Below, piece by piece: positions 1 to 13,463 of a stretch of 64,000 bases of DNA. The stretch is taken from assembly GCF_000293805.1 (NCBI RefSeq), contig NZ_AMBZ01000004.1, positions 1-64,000 of the forward strand, read 5' to 3'. This DNA comes from Paenibacillus alvei DSM 29 (lineage in GTDB: Bacteria > Bacillota > Bacilli > Paenibacillales > Paenibacillaceae). Position numbers and translations under genes: made by a program. Each line of letters opens with the position of its first letter. Within the stretch, counting starts at the first letter, position 1. Below the pieces are notes generated by a model. The model was not told where the DNA came from and ran no database searches. It saw nothing but the letters and a program-made list of their open reading frames with translations.

Positions 1-330
1 CTAGCAGAGGGAGCCGTGCATCCGCAACATCTGTCAGAGGGATCCGTGCATCCGCATCATTTGTCAGAGGGATCCGTGCATCCGCAACATCTGGCCGAAG
101 GAGCGTTGCACCCGCATCATCTAGCAGAGGGAGCCGTGCACCCGCAACATCTGTCAGAGGGAGCTGTGCATCCGCAACATCTGGCCGAAGGAGCCGTGCA
201 TCCGCATCATCTAGCAGTAGAATCGGTTCAACAGCACCATATTGCTCCGCATGCAGTCAGTGGATCGCATATTCAAGCACAGTCGATTGAGCGTGATCAT
301 CTGGCGTCGGGAGTAATAAGTGTCGAGCAT
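1..330 (+). repeat. 30-bp in-frame tandem repeat (11 units, 7 well conserved)
   Basis: Units begin at 1, 31, 61, 91, 121, 151 and 181 and encode the decapeptide L-x-E-G-x-V-H-P-x-H. Units at 211, 241, 271 and 301 keep only the spacing, the terminal H and the hydrophobic first residue. The gradient from near-identical to decayed copies suggests the array grows or is homogenised at its 5' side, which lies outside the window. Confidence 0.9.
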
Positions 331-4929: not shown

Positions 4930-5320
4930 TCTGTCCATCCTCCTGTATTTGTATTGAAGCGCTACACATATGCATTGAATCTGTCTGTACCGACGGCAAT
5001 GGGAAAGCCATTCGATCGTATTGCGTATCCTACCTTTTGGCACAAAGATTGTAAATAGATGCCAATCCATGATTTTGAAATGAATTGTCAAGCAAAGCGT
5101 TTACATACGGGTATTTATTTAAATTTCTTTGTTTTTCTCATGAAATCATCGCCGTACAAGCAAAGTGGAGAAATTGCGAGGTAATAAGGCTGTAATGAGA
5201 GATAAGATGGGATTAGTTCATCACAATTGCTTGGAAATGGAGAAATTATGGTTTTCATTTCATTTACAGCAGGAGGGGGAAAGGCGTAAGATTCAGTTCA
5301 GCAACAACAACGATATCCGT

Positions 5321-5498
5321 TGCGTCTCAATCGCTGAATTGCGCAGAAAGCGGAAGCGGGGGAACCAATAAAGCGAATGCAGAGCTGAGTAATAGTCAGC
5401 AGCCAACGTTCGCATGGGGTGAATCCGGTACAGGAATCGATTCCTGGCTGGTAGGGCGACTCTTCGCGCCCGAATCCGTCAGCTAACCTCGTAAGCGT
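5321..5498 (+). ncRNA. c-di-AMP riboswitch (ydaO/yuaA class), copy 1
   Basis: The conserved blocks of the ydaO/yuaA aptamer are all present in order: an AGCGGGGGAACC-like block near 5357, TGGGGTGAATCC near 5416, AGGGCGACTCTTC near 5455, and CGAATCCGTCAGCTAACCTC followed by GTAAGCG ending near 5497. The class binds cyclic di-AMP and usually turns expression off when the ligand is high. It lies about 85 bases upstream of the RCK_N-like gene at 5583, so it is expected to control a potassium-sensing function. The 3' half is almost identical to copy 2 at 6008-6168. The boundaries are approximate because the P1 stem was placed by eye. Confidence 0.93.
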
Positions 5499-5503
5499 AC
5501 GGG

Positions 5504-5542
5504 AGAGGCGCGCCTGATCAGATGGCGACGTACCTCTTTCTT
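5504..5542 (+). terminator. Candidate expression-platform terminator of riboswitch copy 1
   Basis: AGAGG (5504-5508) can pair with CCTCT (5533-5537) and CGCC (5511-5514) with GGCG (5524-5527), followed by TTTCTT. It starts right after the aptamer. The stem has an internal loop and the T tract is short, so it may be weak. Confidence 0.35.
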
Positions 5543-5582
5543 GCAAGCAGGGCTTCGGACAGATGAACAGGAGGAAATGGAT

Positions 5583-5990
5583 ATGTACGATGCGGACCGG
5601 GTCATTGCAGTGTTCGCAGGCTGTGAGATGGGAATTGACTTTATACGCCAATTGAAAGGAGCAGGATATTCGATAGCGGGTATCGCCCATAATGGACGGT
5701 TGGCGAAGCGATTGGAAGGTATTGGAGTTACTCCGGTATGTCGAATCAATACGACGGAGCCGAAGGCGTGGGCTGTGCCTCATGTTCCAATTGGCCGAAT
5801 CTATGTATTTGAACAAAGCTTTGCACTATCCTGCCGGCTGCTTCAAATATGCCGACAATGGACGACGGAGCCGATCACAATCGTAACGAAGCGTCATCAT
5901 CCGCAGTCGATTTACCGATTGCTTGGTGCGAATTACGTCATTTATACGCAATCGGATCAAGTATCATTTTTACTATCTGATATCATCTAA
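5583..5990 (+). CDS. Standalone RCK_N (TrkA-N-like) Rossmann protein
   Basis: The start at 5583 is set by AGGAGG at 5568-5574. The 135-residue protein looks like a single RCK N-terminal domain: a first beta strand V-I-A-V-F-A with a degenerate glycine loop (G-C-E-M-G instead of GxGxxG), and near the end R-L-L-G-A-N-Y-V-I, which matches the k-L-G-A-d-x-V-I segment of TrkA/Ktr regulators that bind NAD or nucleotides and gate potassium channels. No RCK_C domain and no membrane part are present. It lies between the two c-di-AMP riboswitches and ahead of kdp, which supports a potassium role. The glycine loop is unusual, so dinucleotide binding is uncertain. The family call is by motif reading only. 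Confidence 0.6.
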   Translation: MYDADRVIAVFAGCEMGIDFIRQLKGAGYSIAGIAHNGRLAKRLEGIGVTPVCRINTTEPKAWAVPHVPIGRIYVFEQSFALSCRLLQICRQWTTEPITIVTKRHHPQSIYRLLGANYVIYTQSDQVSFLLSDII

Positions 5991-6007
5991 TTTATCCATA
6001 TAGGCAA

Positions 6008-6168
6008 TGCTCACCGCTGAATCCCATTCATGGGAACGGGGGAACCAACGTTAGTGCGCCAACTGTACATTTACAGTTCGCGCAAGGGGTGAATCCGGCA
6101 CAGGAATCCGTTCCTGGCTGGTAGGGCGACTCTTCGCGCCCGAATCCGTCAGCTAACCTCGTAAGCGT
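6008..6168 (+). ncRNA. c-di-AMP riboswitch (ydaO/yuaA class), copy 2, upstream of kdp
   Basis: The same aptamer blocks recur: GGGGGAACCAACG near 6039, GGGGTGAATCCGG near 6090, AGGGCGACTCTTC near 6123, and CGAATCCGTCAGCTAACCTC then GTAAGCG ending near 6168. From the GGGGTGAATCC block to the end, copies 1 and 2 differ at only a few bases. It starts about 18 bases after the stop of the RCK_N gene and is followed by a strong terminator at 6237, fitting a transcriptional OFF switch for kdp at high c-di-AMP. Control of kdp by this riboswitch class is known in Bacillus. Confidence 0.95.
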
Positions 6169-6236
6169 CCAAGGAGGCAGCCTTTATTTCGTCGTGGAAC
6201 AATTACGCGTACGTTTATTTGACAATGCGTGAGTGA

Positions 6237-6276
6237 AGCCACACGGAAAGGGTCCCTCTTTCCGTGTGGCTTTTTG
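6237..6276 (+). terminator. Strong intrinsic terminator of riboswitch copy 2
   Basis: The stem AGCCACACGGAAAG pairs with CTTTCCGTGTGGCT over 14 bases and is followed by TTTTTG. It lies 70 bases after the aptamer and about 100 bases before the first kdp-region ORF, as expected for the expression platform. Confidence 0.92.
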
Positions 6277-6379: not shown

Positions 6380-6487
6380 ATGTTTGATGCAGTCATGATG
6401 ATTCTTATCGCGCTGCTTGGACTGAGCGTATTGGGAATTCTCCATTGGTGCAAGGCGGAAGTGGAAGAACGAGGTGATCGCTCATGA
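6380..6487 (+). CDS. 35-residue single-span membrane peptide ahead of kdpF
   Basis: An ATG at 6380 follows AGGAGGAGGAAGGG (a very strong ribosome site) and encodes 35 residues: a hydrophobic stretch of about 18 residues (M-M-I-L-I-A-L-L-G-L-S-V-L-G-I-L), then a charged tail rich in E and R. Its stop overlaps the start of kdpF (ATGA at 6484), so the two are coupled. I do not recognise a named family. Position and size suggest a Kdp accessory peptide or a second KdpF-like subunit, which is an inference. Confidence 0.65.
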   Translation: MFDAVMMILIALLGLSVLGILHWCKAEVEERGDRS

Positions 6488-6618: not shown

Positions 6619-8298
6619 ATGAGTGCAATCGAATGGATCGCCATTGGAATTACCTTATTGCTTGCCTTGGCGATAGCGCGTCCGATCGGAATATATATGG
6701 CAGGGGTGTTTGATAATAGCGGAGCTCCAAGACCGCTGGACTCTGTATTTGGGCCGATAGATCGATTTTTATTTACATGTTTCGGCATTAAGGACAAATC
6801 GCAAAGCTGGAAGGCATACGCCTTTACGGCAGTTGCCACCAACGTGCTGATGATTGTGGTGACATATGCAATATTCCGCCTTCAAGGGGTATTGCCGCTT
6901 AATCCGAATGGGATTCCGGGCATGGAACCGGGAGTGGCATTCAATACGGCGATCAGCTTCATGGCGAATACGAACTTGCAGCACTACAGCGGTGAAAGTG
7001 GGCTGTCCCTGCTGTCGCAAATGATGGGCATTATTTTCTTAATGTTCACGTCTCCTGCTACAGCTCTTGCGGCAGTGATGGCGATTATTCGCGGTTTGAC
7101 TGGCAAACCGCTCGGCAATTTCTTGGCAGACCTTGTACGTTCGATTACGCGTATTTTCCTGCCAATTGCGATCGTTGCCAGTGTGCTGTTCATCTGGAAT
7201 GGGGTACCGCAATCCTTAAGTCCAATGGAAAGTGCAGTAACTGTTGAAGGAGCAGAGCAGCACATTCCGCTTGGCCCTGTAGGAGCTATGATGTCGATTA
7301 AGGAGCTTGGCAACAATGGTGGCGGCCACTTTGGAGCGAACTCTGCTCATCCATTTGAGAATCCGAATGGTGTGACGAATTTAATTCATATTTTACTCAT
7401 GCTAATGCTGTGTACAGGACTTCCATTTACCTACAGCCGTATGGTCGGCAACAAGAAGGAAGGACGAGTTCTATTCGTCTCGATGGCGATCCTGTTCCTA
7501 ATTATGCTTAGTTCCTCTCTTACGGCGGAATATATGGGGAATCCGGTATTGAACGCTGCGGGATTAAGCGGATCTGGCAGCATGGAAGGGAAAGAAGTAC
7601 GCATTGGCGTTGCTCAATCCTCGCTATATTCGGTCGTTACGACTGCATCAGAGACGGGCGGCGTCAATAATATGCATGATACGCTGACACCGCTTGGCGG
7701 CTTGATCCCGATGGCGAATATGATGCTGAACACCGTATTCGGCGGTGTTGGTGCAGGCTTTATGAATGTGCTGCTGTACGTCATGATTGCCGTATTCCTA
7801 TCCGGTCTCATGGTCGGACGAACACCTGAGTTTCTGGGACGCAAGCTGGAAAGCCGGGAAATGAAGCTGCTGGCAGTTACTTTGCTGGTGCATCCGATCC
7901 TGATTCTTGTACCGACTGCGATTGCAGTTGCTACACAGGCGGATACGCTGTCCAATCCAGGGTTCCATGGATTGTCTCAGGCGTTGTATGAGTTTACGTC
8001 CTCGGCTGCGAACAATGGTTCCGGCTTTGAAGGGTTGGGCGACGCAACACCATTTTGGAACATTTCCACAGGGATCGTCATGTTCTTAGGGCGCTATGTA
8101 TCGCTCATTACGCTGCTGGCAGTAGCCGGTTCGATGGCGAAGAAGCAGCCGATTCCGAATACAAGCGGTACGTTCCAAACGAATACGGCGCTGTTCGGTA
8201 TCGTATTTGTCGGCACAGTGCTTATTGTAGGTGCTCTGACGTTCTTCCCGGCAGTCGTGCTTGGACCGGTCGCAGAACATCTGACGTTGTGGAAATAA
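6619..8298 (+). CDS. kdpA: KdpA, potassium-translocating subunit
   Basis: The 559-residue protein has the family's usual length and about ten hydrophobic segments. KdpA is the channel-like subunit of the high-affinity ATP-driven potassium uptake system KdpFABC in the cytoplasmic membrane. Selectivity-type glycine loops are visible, for example [18 protein letters not shown]. The start at 6619 is preceded by GAAGGGTGG; the frame extends upstream to 6589 without a better site. It is followed by kdpB after 13 bases. Confidence 0.97.
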
Positions 8299-8311: not shown

Positions 8312-10402
8312 ATGAGAACGGAAAAACAGATGAAAACACCCGCACCATATGAACCGGCGCGCAGACATACTACAGATACGAAGGAACGGAGCATGTTCCA
8401 AGGCAGCTTAATGCGGGCAGCCTCGATCGATGCGCTGCGAAAGTTTGATCCGCGTCAGATGGTTAAAAATCCAATGATGTTCATTTGCGAGGTAGGCTTC
8501 GTCATTACGCTGCTGCTTACATTCGCACCAGATGCATTTGGCTCGCCAATGCCGCGTTGGTTCAACGGCACAGTCAGCTTCATTTTGTTCATTACAGTGT
8601 GGTTCGCCAACTTTGCTGAGGCTCTTGCAGAGGGTCGGGGCAAGGCACAGGCAGATTCCTTGAAGCAAGCGAAGCGGGATTTATGGGCTAATAAAATTAC
8701 GGAAGCAGGTACGGTTCGCGTATCCTCATCCGAGCTGCGCAAGGGAGATGTCGTAATTGTTCGCGAAGGGGAAACAATTCCTGGAGATGGTGAGGTAATC
8801 TCTGGATTGGCCTCTGTTGATGAATCGGCGATTACGGGAGAATCTGCTCCTGTATTGAAAGAAGCAGGCGGGGATTTCTGCTCCGTAACGGCCGGAACGA
8901 AAGTGATCAGTGATGAGATTCGTGTTCGAATTACAAGCGACCCTGGAGAATCGTTCCTGGATCGGATGATTTCGCTTGTAGAGGGCGCACAGCGCAAGAA
9001 GACACCAAATGAGCTTGCACTTCATACCGTGCTTGTCAGCTTGACGCTTATCTTTTTGGTCGTTGTCGTTACGCTGCCTATATTCAGTAACTATTTGCAG
9101 GTTGAATTGAATGCCGGGGTACTGATTGCCCTGCTGGTCTGCTTGATTCCAACCACGATTGGCGGCTTGCTGTCCGCTATCGGGATCGCTGGTATGGATC
9201 GCGTAACCCGCTTTAATGTCATTGCAACATCAGGCAAGGCGGTTGAAGCGTGCGGGGATATTCATACGATTATTTTGGATAAGACAGGAACCATTACGTT
9301 CGGTAATCGTTTGGCTCATGAGCTCATTCCGGTTCAAGGCGTGAGTGTGAATACCTTGTCTGAATGGGCGGCAGTTGCCTCCCATCATGATGAAACGCCT
9401 GAAGGGCGCTCCGTCGTGGATTGGGTATCCAAGGCAGGAATTACGTATAATGCTGAGCTTGCTGTCCAAGGAGAATTCATCCCTTTCAAAGCGGAAACGC
9501 GCATGAGCGGCGTGGATTTGAAGGATGGACGCTGTGTGCGCAAGGGAGCTGTCGATGCGGTGAAACGCTGGGTTATCGCCCAAGGAGGTACTGTGCCTCA
9601 GGATTTGGATGCCAATTCGAATGCGATCGCTTCTGCCGGCGGCACGCCGCTGGCGGTAGCCGTAGGACGTGACATATATGGCTTAATTTATTTGAAGGAT
9701 ACGGTGAAGCCCGGGATGCGGGAGCGGTTCGAGCAGCTTCGCCGCATGGGCATCCGTACCGTGATGTGTACAGGGGATAACCCGTTGACGGCGGCGACGA
9801 TTGCGCGGGAAGCTGGTGTCGATGACTTCATCGCGGAGAGCAAGCCGGAAGATAAGCTGGCGCTTATTCGCAAGGAGCAAGCGGAGGGCAAGCTTGTAGC
9901 AATGACTGGGGACGGTACGAATGACGCTCCTGCGCTGGCGCAAGCCGATGTCGGCATTGCGATGAACAGCGGTACGGCCGCAGCGAAGGAAGCTGCGAAC
10001 ATGGTTGATCTCGACTCTGATCCGACGAAGGTTATTGAAGTGGTGTCTATCGGCAAGCAGTTGCTAATGACGCGCGGTGCTCTGACGACATTCAGTATTG
10101 CAAATGATGTAGCGAAATATTTTGCGATTATACCCGCAATGTTTATGATTGCCATCCCGCAAATGTCTGCCCTGAATATAATGGACTTGCATTCGCCAGT
10201 ATCGGCCATTTTATCGGCACTTATCTTTAATGCCATTATTATTCCGTTATTAATTCCGTTGGCGGTCAAAGGCGTCGCCTATAAGCCGATGTCATCGGCT
10301 AAACTGCTGCAGCGTAACTTGTTCGTGTATGGCTTGGGCGGGCTGATAGCTCCTTTCGTCGGCATTAAGCTGATCGATCTGATTGTGGGAATGCTGGTGT
10401 AG
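8312..10402 (+). CDS. kdpB: KdpB, P-type ATPase subunit of the potassium pump
   Basis: The 696-residue P-type ATPase energises KdpA. Visible signatures are I-T-G-E-S-A-P near residue 173, the phosphorylated aspartate in D-K-T-G-T near 323, and [10 protein letters not shown] near 533. The length is normal. The start at 8312 follows AAGGGGGAACGG. The first 28 residues are hydrophilic and slightly longer than in many homologues. It is cotranscribed with kdpF, kdpA and kdpC. Confidence 0.97.
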
Positions 10403-10499: not shown

Positions 10500-11084
10500 A
10501 TGGGAGAGCGTATGAATATTGGTGGAGCGATGGTACGGACGACAATCGGTCTACTGCTGCTGTGCGGACTAGCTTATCCATTTGCGATGACGGGGCTTGC
10601 GCAGGCGGTCATGCCGAAGCAGGCGAATGGAAGCATGGTATACAATGAGAAGGGGCAATTGCTAGGCTCGAAGCTGATTGGACAGAATTTTACAGAACCG
10701 CAATATTTTCATGGACGAATTTCGAGCATTGGCAATGATGCTGCCGGCTCTGGTTCGCCGAACTACGCTCCATCAAATCTAGCTCTTCAGGAGAGAGTAG
10801 TGAAGTCGGTTGAGGAATGGGGCAAGGTGAATCCGGATGTAGCTGCAAAGCCGATCCCGCAGGATTTGTTGACGAACTCCGCGTCTGGTCTTGATCCGCA
10901 TATCACACCGGAAGCGGCGCGCGTACAGCTGACTCGTGTAGCGAAAGCAAGCGGTATTTCCAAGGAACGGTTGGAACAATTGATTGAGAAATATACGGAA
11001 GGCAGGGACTTGGGCGTATTTGGACAGATGCGCGTCAATGTATTTATGCTTAACCTGGAAGTGCAGCACGAAATGAAAGGCTAG
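10500..11084 (+). CDS. kdpC: KdpC, chaperone-like subunit of the potassium pump
   Basis: The 194-residue protein has one N-terminal membrane helix (residues 12-32) and a soluble domain containing S-G-S-P-N-Y-A-P-S-N, L-T-N-S-A-S-G-L-D-P-H-I and a C-terminal V-N-V-F-M-L-N-L, all typical of KdpC, which raises ATP affinity of KdpB. ATG at 10500 has AGAGAGG upstream; ATG at 10512 is a possible alternative with GGGAGAG. The next gene begins at the base after the stop. Confidence 0.95.
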   Translation: MGERMNIGGAMVRTTIGLLLLCGLAYPFAMTGLAQAVMPKQANGSMVYNEKGQLLGSKLIGQNFTEPQYFHGRISSIGNDAAGSGSPNYAPSNLALQERVVKSVEEWGKVNPDVAAKPIPQDLLTNSASGLDPHITPEAARVQLTRVAKASGISKERLEQLIEKYTEGRDLGVFGQMRVNVFMLNLEVQHEMKG

Positions 11085-13463
11085 GTGTCGGCTGTGAATG
11101 AAGGGGATGAATATCGTCGGCAGTCGCCAGAAATGATATTGCGCATGCTGGAGCAAATGAAGCGGGGGAGACTCCGTATTTTGATGGCCGTTGCTAGTGG
11201 AGCGGGCAAGACTACGCAGCTTCTGCTTGAAGGATGGAATTGCACCAAGCAAGGGCTTGATGTCGTATATGGGACAGCGCTGCCAACACAGGAGATATGG
11301 TCTGAGGTAGGATTGGATGCAGGCGGAGAAGAGCCTCCCCTTAAAGCAATAGCGATGATCGCATGGCAGAAGGACGGTCTGCATCGATACGATATCGATG
11401 TGGAGGCGATTACGGCACGGATGCCCGATGTTGTATTAATTGATGGGCTGGCTCATCGTAATCGAATGGCTGCCTTGCGTCCTACAAGGCTAGAGGATGT
11501 GCGGGAATTGCTCAGACGCGGCATCAGTGTCATTGCGACGATGAATGCCTATGAAGATGAAAGTGTTCAAGCGGCGGCCAAGAAAATGACAGGGGTCGTC
11601 AGCGAATGGACCGTACCAAGTGAGGTGTTGAAGGAGGCAGACGAAGTCCGCCTCCTTGACGTGTCTGCGGAGTCTTTAATGGAGCGCAGAACGTATGGGC
11701 AGCTTAGAGGCAAGGGTCATTCGCGGAAGCACCGGGCAGAAGAACGCAGCCGAATCAGCATCTTGCGTGAGCTTGCACTGCGAACGATGGCTGATCATGT
11801 GAACGGTTCTCTGGAGCAGCATCGAAATGAGCTGGGGCTTATGGGGCCATCGGGGGCATCCGAACGAATTCTTGTTCTCGCGCAATTCGGCTGGAATGGC
11901 TCGATATATGTTCGAAGAGGGCAGCAGATTGCTAAGCGGTTGAACGGGGAGCTTTATATTGTGACCTTTGTTCAGCCGGATATGGAATTAACGACGGAGC
12001 AGGCTGCTTTTCGCCGTTCTCTGAAGAAGATGGCCATGAAGACTGAAGCGGTATGGGAGGAGATTCCTTCGCGCTCTCGCCGCGATATGGCCGCTGCATT
12101 AGCTGAGTATGCGAAGATTCATGGCATCACGCGCTTTGTACTCGGCCACTCTCGTCAGACACGATGGCAGGAGTGGTGGAATGGCTCGCTAATTGGAGCG
12201 CTGCTAAGACGCATTGAAACGACAGACTTGTTCCTGATCGCCGATCATTCACTCGTGAAAGGAGAGCGGATACTGCCTGCTCGCCTAGCTGCATCGGCTG
12301 AGGCGGAGCCGCTATTTAAGCGGGTCACGGAGCAGCGGATTCAAGAGAAGGCTGCTGGCTTGAAGCGGGGAAGGCTCAAGGTGATTATTGGTGCAGCACC
12401 CGGCGTAGGCAAAACGTATCATATGCTGCAAGAAGGCAATCGGTTGCTTGAGCAAGGGGTTGATGTCGTTATTGGTCTGCTGGAAACGCACGGCAGAGCT
12501 GAAACGGCGTCTCAAGTAGGAGCACTGACAATCGTTCCGCGCAAGCGTATTGCGTATAACGGCAAGATGCTGGAGGAGATGGATACAGAAGAACTGCTTC
12601 GCATTCATGCCGAAGTCGTGCTCGTTGATGAGTTGGCCCACACGAATGTACCAGGAAGTATGCGCGCCAAGCGTTATGAGGATGTATTATGCTTGCTCGA
12701 AGCGGGCATATCCGTGGTCACGACAGTCAATGTCCAGCATCTAGAAAGCTTGAATGACGCGGTAGAGCATTTGACCGGGGTACGTGTGCGCGAGACTGTG
12801 CCTGATATCGTGCTTCGGCAAGCGCGGGAAATTCAATTAATAGATGTAACTCCCCAGACGATACAGGAAAGAATGCGTGCTGGGTTGATCTATAAGGCGG
12901 ATAAAGTAGAGCAAGCCTTATCGAACTTCTTCCGCGTTCCCAATCTGATCGGCTTGCGGGAGCTTGCGCTGCGAGAGGTGGCTGACGATGTCGATGAGCG
13001 ATTGGAATCGTGGGAGCGAAGGGCACTGTTCCGCGGTCCATGGCGGAGGCAAGAGGTGATATTCGTCTGCATTGGCCCTGACGTGCGTCCAGAAGGACTC
13101 GTTCGGCATGGATTTCGGATTGCTCATCGCCTGAAGGCCCCCATGCATGTCGTTCATTTGCCGGTTGCACCCTGGGGGCAGCGCAAGACATCTGTTGTTT
13201 TGGAGAGGGAAATGTCCGAAGTGCGGGCACTGACCGAGCGGCTTGGAGGTACGTTCCACGAGCGCGCGGCAGTGACGCGAGGAAAATGGGCTGAGTCGGC
13301 TGTACAAATGGCCGATCAGCTTCGTGCCAGTCAAATTATCGTAGGTATGCCAATCCGCTCCCGCCGCTGGGGCAGGCTGGGGGCAATGGAGGCACTGATG
13401 CGCCAGGCAAGGCATATGGATGTACTCGTCCTCTCTGAATGGGAGGATTTGCGAACGAAATAA
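11085..13463 (+). CDS. kdpD: Double KdpD-sensor protein without kinase (KdpD-USP twice)
   Basis: The 792-residue protein holds two full copies of the KdpD N-terminal unit: KdpD ATPase-like domain (about 12-230) plus USP-like domain (about 258-390), then the same again (about 425-640 and 650-785). The second copy keeps the family motifs: Walker A G-A-A-P-G-V-G-K-T-Y near 434, D-E-L-A-H-T-N and V-N-V-Q-H-L-E. The first copy has drifted: A-S-G-A-G-K-T-T near 37, and I-D-G-L-A-H-R-N in place of D-E-L-A-H-T-N. No membrane helices, GAF or histidine kinase follow, and no kdpE lies nearby. Single-unit kinase-less KdpD proteins are known in some bacteria; the tandem form is unusual. In Staphylococcus aureus the USP domain of KdpD binds c-di-AMP, so c-di-AMP sensing is possible here. 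GTG at 11085 abuts the kdpC stop; GTG at 11094 is an alternative. Confidence 0.9.
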   Translation: MSAVNEGDEYRRQSPEMILRMLEQMKRGRLRILMAVASGAGKTTQLLLEGWNCTKQGLDVVYGTALPTQEIWSEVGLDAGGEEPPLKAIAMIAWQKDGLHRYDIDVEAITARMPDVVLIDGLAHRNRMAALRPTRLEDVRELLRRGISVIATMNAYEDESVQAAAKKMTGVVSEWTVPSEVLKEADEVRLLDVSAESLMERRTYGQLRGKGHSRKHRAEERSRISILRELALRTMADHVNGSLEQHRNELGLMGPSGASERILVLAQFGWNGSIYVRRGQQIAKRLNGELYIVTFVQPDMELTTEQAAFRRSLKKMAMKTEAVWEEIPSRSRRDMAAALAEYAKIHGITRFVLGHSRQTRWQEWWNGSLIGALLRRIETTDLFLIADHSLVKGERILPARLAASAEAEPLFKRVTEQRIQEKAAGLKRGRLKVIIGAAPGVGKTYHMLQEGNRLLEQGVDVVIGLLETHGRAETASQVGALTIVPRKRIAYNGKMLEEMDTEELLRIHAEVVLVDELAHTNVPGSMRAKRYEDVLCLLEAGISVVTTVNVQHLESLNDAVEHLTGVRVRETVPDIVLRQAREIQLIDVTPQTIQERMRAGLIYKADKVEQALSNFFRVPNLIGLRELALREVADDVDERLESWERRALFRGPWRRQEVIFVCIGPDVRPEGLVRHGFRIAHRLKAPMHVVHLPVAPWGQRKTSVVLEREMSEVRALTERLGGTFHERAAVTRGKWAESAVQMADQLRASQIIVGMPIRSRRWGRLGAMEALMRQARHMDVLVLSEWEDLRTK

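Follow-up and report, generated by a model that had tools for sequence, protein, structure and literature searches.

The kdp locus of Paenibacillus alvei DSM 29 carries, in order along the forward strand, a c-di-AMP aptamer (aptamer 1), an RCK_N-like gene (hereafter RCK), a second c-di-AMP aptamer (aptamer 2) and the potassium-pump genes of kdp, an arrangement that is kept in related genomes. We tentatively read the two aptamers, at something close to an even chance, as elements of a single transcript on which aptamer 1 mainly gates the translation of RCK and aptamer 2 gates the transcription of kdp. The features of the locus are collected in Table 1, where positions refer to the window, by which we mean the whole 64,000-nt stretch of contig NZ_AMBZ01000004.1 that was analyzed.

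Table 1. Features of the P. alvei kdp locus, with positions counted from the first nucleotide of the window
Feature	Position	Strand	Basis or remark
Promoter-like TTTACA-18-TAAGAT	5263..5292	+	upstream of aptamer 1; motif in 13/13 aptamer-RCK loci of the genus
c-di-AMP aptamer 1 (RF00379)	5322..5512	+	89.4 bits vs gathering 38; E 1.4e-19
Aptamer 1 platform hairpin GGGAGAGG (5501-5508) : CCTCTTTC (5533-5540)	5501..5540	+	weak terminator-like or anti-sequestor
RCK Shine-Dalgarno AGGAGG	5569..5574	+	complementary to CCTCTT at 5533-5538
RCK_N-like gene, 135 aa, without GxGxxG	5583 (ATG)..5990 (stop)	+	family in 18/19 genus genomes
c-di-AMP aptamer 2 (RF00379)	6005..6182	+	91.4 bits; E 3.8e-20
Aptamer 2 intrinsic terminator	6235..6273	+	kept in 9/9 serial loci
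Small hydrophobic ORF, 35 aa, 5′ of kdpF	6380..6487	+	ORF list
kdpF-like small ORF, 26 aa	6484..6564	+	named from position and resemblance, by inspection only
kdpA	6619..8298	+	PF03814, E 5.3e-221
kdpB	8312..10402	+	E1-E2 ATPase and HAD hydrolase domains, position
kdpC	10500..11084	+	PF02669, E 1.3e-67
KdpD-like non-kinase protein, 792 aa, sensor module twice	11085..13463	+	NF038185, 637.8 bits, two stretches; PF02702, two stretches

The profile search returned KdpA, KdpB and KdpC in that order, which identifies the locus as KdpABC. The 35-aa hydrophobic ORF runs into the start of the kdpF-like ORF, and similar ORFs can be recognized by eye after the kdp leaders of L038, L040 and L041. The KdpD-like protein, which the profile match assigns to the non-kinase family NF038185, has two copies of the KdpD sensor module.

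Two full-length aptamers flank RCK

Both matches to the Rfam model RF00379 lie on the forward strand and cover the full model (cmscan, gathering score 38). The initial annotation had placed one aptamer before RCK and the other just after its stop codon and had proposed a search with this model; the search, once run, confirmed both placements, with scores far above the gathering score. Judging by sequence, either aptamer would bind c-di-AMP. The whole genome contains seven RF00379 matches and one KdpA. The stop codon of RCK lies 14 nt before the Rfam start of aptamer 2 and 24 nt before its P1 strand, a gap that is also 24 nt in one relative (G017) and 61–85 nt in the other seven serial loci, as we call those with the order aptamer–RCK–aptamer–kdp; with the stop this close to P1, terminating ribosomes might affect the folding of aptamer 2 in this species. 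The two aptamers of the window have 58 identical bases in common (5441–5498 and 6111–6168), those of G004 share a different block of 39 bases, and pairs taken across different lineages share at most 33 when our genome and G017 are counted as one, a pattern that is suggestive, and only suggestive, of gene conversion between serial aptamers.

Conservation of the serial layout

RCK was present in 18 of the 19 genus genomes, and the search of these genomes found neither an RCK nor a KdpA match in the remaining one (G010). By Rfam and tblastn searches and comparison of layouts, nine genomes carry the serial layout (our own, G017, G004, G003, G009, G005, G013, G016 and G007), a frequency that makes chance or misassembly an unlikely explanation. 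Four genomes have an aptamer and RCK alone, which we call solo loci, with an aptamer–aptamer–kdp arrangement elsewhere in the genome (G014, G018, G011 and G002), and five have the order aptamer–aptamer–RCK–kdp (G015, G012, G001, G008 and G006). Named records with a layout identical to that of the window are Paenibacillus sp. NAIST15-1, whose RCK is 94% identical, Paenibacillus sp. ACRRX and Paenibacillus taiwanensis. With midpoint rooting, the RCK tree unites the proteins from all 13 loci in which aptamer 1 leads into RCK (serial and solo) in one clade (98/97), and the KdpA tree does so for the nine serial loci (100/99). The 13 loci are related and so amount to far fewer than 13 independent cases.

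At wider range, the searches detected the RCK family in 105 of the 197 genomes covered in the bacterial family, our own genus included, and in 46 of 398 genomes of a class-wide sample, several of them at E values near 1e-5 to 1e-4. We read 81 places outside the genus, 74 from the family list and seven from a first survey, a set that is part of the listed places, with many of one genus that had near-identical scores left out. An aptamer was found by pattern upstream of RCK at 70 of the 81 places, and kdpA lay downstream within the stretch read at 52, but at none of the 81 did the pattern find an aptamer between RCK and kdpA. The distance from RCK to kdpA is 549–849 nt outside the genus, compared with 1029–1195 nt in the nine serial loci. 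The aptamer finder is a core-sequence pattern that misses some aptamers found by Rfam (for example, one each in L028 and L032), so the doublet counts in our surveys of layouts, terminators, promoter motifs and places outside the genus are lower bounds.

Aptamers before kdp or RCK–kdp are frequent in the bacterial family; the count of 12 species with the riboswitch before kdp, given in the excerpted text of PMC6488665, refers to an earlier genome set and is not a like-for-like figure. In L036, L039, L057–L060, L062, L068, L069, L082, L085 and L108, the kdp or RCK leader is preceded, at ~660–730 bases from core to core, by a further c-di-AMP aptamer in the opposite orientation. In L023–L027, the other strand carries an M-box Mg2+ riboswitch ~1.6 kb before the aptamer–aptamer–RCK–kdp leader.

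A probable single transcript

A TTTACA-17/18-TAAGAT-type promoter motif precedes aptamer 1 in all 13 aptamer–RCK loci, the window included, with the variant TAATAT in G004. Of 94 first aptamers, 78 have a looser form of the motif, TTTACA-like-16..19-TANNNT, at 130–420 nt before the core; it precedes none of the 39 second aptamers, the nine that are separated by a gene included, in a count that omits loci L001–L010, L037 and L042–L044 (duplicates or leaders of other genes). The region holds three promoter-like sites where 3.1 would be expected from shuffles, and the promoter before aptamer 1 scores 10.2 on our weight matrix, the 95th shuffle percentile of the 200 nt before aptamer 2 being 10.5, so it is conservation that argues for this promoter. 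At G013 and G016 the top upstream matrix score falls on another site, and the TTTACA–TAAGAT motif is present there. Between the aptamers, a candidate promoter inside RCK was tried and rejected: over the 200 nt that lead up to aptamer 2, no site in the weight-matrix scan of the nine serial loci scored higher than the 95th shuffle percentile. Nor did a terminator come to light between RCK and aptamer 2 at these loci, in contrast to the four solo loci, all of which have one after RCK.

These observations bear on whether the locus might instead consist of two independent adjacent units, promoter–aptamer 1–RCK and promoter–aptamer 2–kdp, with the second promoter inside RCK. Such an arrangement would have a precedent in the solo units of four of the 19 genus genomes, where kdp is elsewhere, and our scans, which used approximate SigA weights and 100 mononucleotide shuffles, cover sigma-70-type promoters only. 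We nonetheless consider it rather improbable, as the best site before aptamer 2 stays under the shuffle threshold in all nine serial loci, the first-aptamer motif is missing there from all nine, and a terminator like those closing the solo units was found in none of the nine. With the motif before aptamer 1 only and no terminator found between, the comparison supports the serial placement on one transcript that the initial annotation had proposed, and both aptamers are probably co-transcribed.

Expression platforms of the two aptamers

A strong hairpin followed by a T-run lies after aptamer 2 in all nine serial loci (−26.5 to −33.3 kcal/mol). As terminator-like sites in the scan of the region are no commoner than in shuffles, the support for this terminator is its conservation in nine of nine loci. 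Among 114 terminator hairpins at −12 kcal/mol or better in our survey, CCTCT occurs in 74 and CCTC or CTCTT in 14 more, and a GAGG-like element follows P1 in 84 of 114 aptamers (a figure without a chance control), which suggests that GAGG:CCUC is a common antiterminator pairing. As a separate candidate link from ligand to platform, we tried a P0 helix in which GCGTCTC, in the 5′ flank of aptamer 1, would pair with GAGGCGC after P1, and rejected it: shuffle p was ≤0.05 in four of 114 aptamers, and for aptamer 1 of the window, where p is 0.085, the helix is good by eye only.

The leader between aptamer 1 and RCK could act on translation. CCTC occurs 8–45 nt before the RCK Shine-Dalgarno (SD) sequence in all 13 aptamer 1–RCK leaders. 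The corresponding figures are 23 of 64 for RCK leaders from other genera, where the search found no SD in a further 17, and 9.5% for shuffles. In the 13 leaders a CCUC:SD helix is possible over 4–8 bp, with an enclosed loop of 26–33 nt. For the window, the predicted exposure of the SD is 0.99 when the GAGG segment takes part in folding and 0.46 when it does not, with the leader cut at ATG+12, and 0.91 versus 0.34 with the cut at ATG+24. Measured against shuffled linkers (mononucleotide, 100 each), this predicted switch is equaled by none of the 100 shuffles in the sister genomes G011 and G002, by 8 in the window, G013 and G016, and by 12–74 in the other eight of the 13 loci, and it lies clearly beyond shuffles in two of the 13 only. 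The SD is predicted to be closed in both states in G003, G009 and G004, and in G005, G013, G016, G007, G014 and G018 the SD is less well hidden in the modeled bound leader than in most shuffles (74–83 of 100 being at least as closed). We regard SD sequestration as a reasonable alternative to a terminator after aptamer 1 and tentatively consider translation somewhat more likely than termination as the mode by which aptamer 1 controls RCK. If aptamer 1 acts by sequestering the SD, kdp is gated once directly, at aptamer 2; the earlier proposal that RCK and kdp respond differently to c-di-AMP may then still stand, as a matter of two mechanisms and not of one versus two terminators.

In the initial annotation, each aptamer has an intrinsic terminator of its own, both are on one transcript, and RCK passes one gate where kdp passes two. 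The likelihood of a single transcript accords with this proposal, and so does the hairpin GAGAGGCG..CCTC with a TTTCTT-like sequence after aptamer 1 in the window and four relatives; among adjacent-aptamer leaders of the bacterial family, moreover, 25 of 30 have a terminator-like site, in some cases a weak one, behind aptamer number one. The GAGAGG..CCTC hairpin is weaker than its counterparts after aptamer 2: its energy is −11.8 kcal/mol in the window and between −14.2 and −16.9 in the four relatives. In the window, where TTTCTTGCA follows it, it could act as a weak terminator. In the other eight of the 13 loci with the same aptamer 1–RCK leader, however, no terminator was found after aptamer 1, which leaves it doubtful that transcription of kdp depends on passing two terminators. 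A terminator match was found for 72 of the 75 other aptamers that the pattern placed immediately upstream of RCK (24 of 24 second aptamers and 48 of 51 single ones), although some of the 72 matches lie far downstream and some are no stronger than the four hairpins at −14.2 to −16.9. If the aptamer 1 hairpin is the counterpart of the GAGG:CCUC antiterminator, it would form without ligand and so have the wrong sign for an OFF switch. On balance we think the two-terminator arrangement somewhat unlikely. Far less probable still is that aptamer 1 has decayed and lost any regulatory effect, leaving aptamer 2 alone to matter: a platform with no strong terminator and a predicted translational switch that is uneven across relatives would fit such decay, but a full-length aptamer 1 match is kept at 75.6–94.0 bits in all 13 loci, and many of its core columns are invariant.

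A working model of the locus

In the mechanism that we tentatively prefer, translational control at aptamer 1 and transcriptional control at aptamer 2, the single promoter of Table 1 would give rise to a transcript running through aptamer 1, RCK, aptamer 2 and kdp. In the free state, GAGAGG just after P1 would pair with CCUCUUU and leave the RCK SD open, whereas c-di-AMP bound to aptamer 1 would free CCUC to pair with the SD, so that RCK would go untranslated. On aptamer 2, c-di-AMP would allow the terminator to form, and kdp would not be made, the OFF control demonstrated for a c-di-AMP terminator riboswitch before kdp in B. thuringiensis (PMC6488665, in the excerpted text). Under K+ shortage, as c-di-AMP falls, RCK would open through translation of existing mRNA and kdp through read-through.

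The RCK protein

TrkA_N/RCK_N domains carry GxGxxG as their nucleotide-binding motif. This motif is absent from RCK, where the aligned residues are VFAGCEMG in the window and VFAPNxMG in most of the close relatives. RCK scores 12.3 bits with Pfam TrkA_N (PF02254), below the cut-off of 23.8, which makes the label ‘RCK_N-like’ a weak one; no NCBIfam family matched at E 0.1, and a search of PDB chains gave seven marginal matches, with a de novo protein (E 0.029) and KtrA (E 0.06) among the best. RCK thus resembles the RCK_N domains of KtrA and TrkA in length and in a weak profile match, but differs from these proteins in staying under the Pfam cut-off, in lacking GxGxxG and in a size, 135 aa, that leaves no space for RCK_C as a second domain. 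Its conserved residues include FE.S..L.CR.LQ. Genomic context makes RCK a candidate Kdp accessory, regulator or sensor. Alicyclobacillus kdpZ might be a relative of the gene. The kdpZ mentioned in the excerpted part of PMC5401905 is that of Clostridium acetobutylicum.

Possible origin of the gene-separated pair

A platform motif, CGTCGTG..ACGGT..CTGTG, follows aptamer 2 in four of the nine serial loci, L017 and L018 among them, and is absent, by sequence, from the aptamer 2 platform of the window. Elsewhere in the genus it occurs in two of the four aptamer–aptamer–kdp loci and in four of the five aptamer–aptamer–RCK–kdp loci, and it follows none of the 22 first aptamers of the genus and none of 93 aptamers outside it. 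This distribution hints that the ancestor of aptamer 2 was the second member of a tandem in a kdp leader, and that a promoter–aptamer–RCK cassette now occupies the place of the first. A tblastn search with the ORFs of the window found no upstream genes common to it and the four solo loci; one repeat-rich upstream ORF shows a faint likeness between serial and solo loci, by eye only. It is conceivable, at rather less than an even chance, that the locus represents a gene-separated, bi-mechanism pair for one ligand, in which the translation of an RCK_N-like protein is switched first and the transcription of the pump next on the same RNA, and in which the aptamer 1 platform changed from terminator to SD sequestration when a gene came between the aptamers of an older tandem.

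Relation to known riboswitch pairs

As excerpted, PMC9481103 lists 77 c-di-AMP doublets, accepting a tandem only where no ORF intervenes and excluding gaps over 300 nt, and its figure 3 legend describes seven riboswitches within 7 kb of one bacterium; contiguous riboswitches are defined in the available part of PMC12452182 as lying within one intergenic region. Here a conserved 135-codon ORF intervenes, which places the pair outside both definitions. Like the tandem (pseudo-cooperative) c-di-AMP doublets in the excerpts of PMC9481103, the locus has two complete aptamers in series before one operon, and adjacent doublets also precede kdp in the bacterial family, in the aptamer–aptamer–kdp and aptamer–aptamer–RCK–kdp layouts. 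Unlike those published doublets, the present pair has a gene between its aptamers, and its first aptamer is without a canonical terminator in most related loci. Our search of the open-access literature found no description of a gene-separated c-di-AMP riboswitch pair. The earlier statement that no serial pair with a gene in between had been described holds for the intervening gene only, since side-by-side doublets are already published in PMC9481103, to go by its excerpted text, and the novelty is limited accordingly.

Two further systems invite comparison. The B. thuringiensis kdpFABC riboswitch, as described in the excerpts of PMC6488665, is similar in ligand class, operon, terminator-type switch and the presence of a KdpD-like protein without a kinase, but it has one aptamer, and its operon as described has no RCK gene. 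KdpE is absent from that system. Those excerpts, which give the species count quoted above, describe no riboswitch pairs. If our reading is correct, the locus also resembles the SAM-II/SAM-V bi-mechanism tandem covered in the excerpts of PMC9481103, in that two riboswitches for one ligand combine control of transcription and of translation. In SAM-II/SAM-V, transcription is controlled first and then translation, for one ORF, whereas here the translation of the first gene would be controlled first and then the transcription of the next genes.

The locus points to a small RCK_N-like family without an above-cut-off Pfam or NCBIfam assignment. If the mechanism holds, surveys confined to single intergenic regions would miss pairs of this kind, and a pair of riboswitches for one ligand, spread along an operon, would control successive genes, possibly by different mechanisms.
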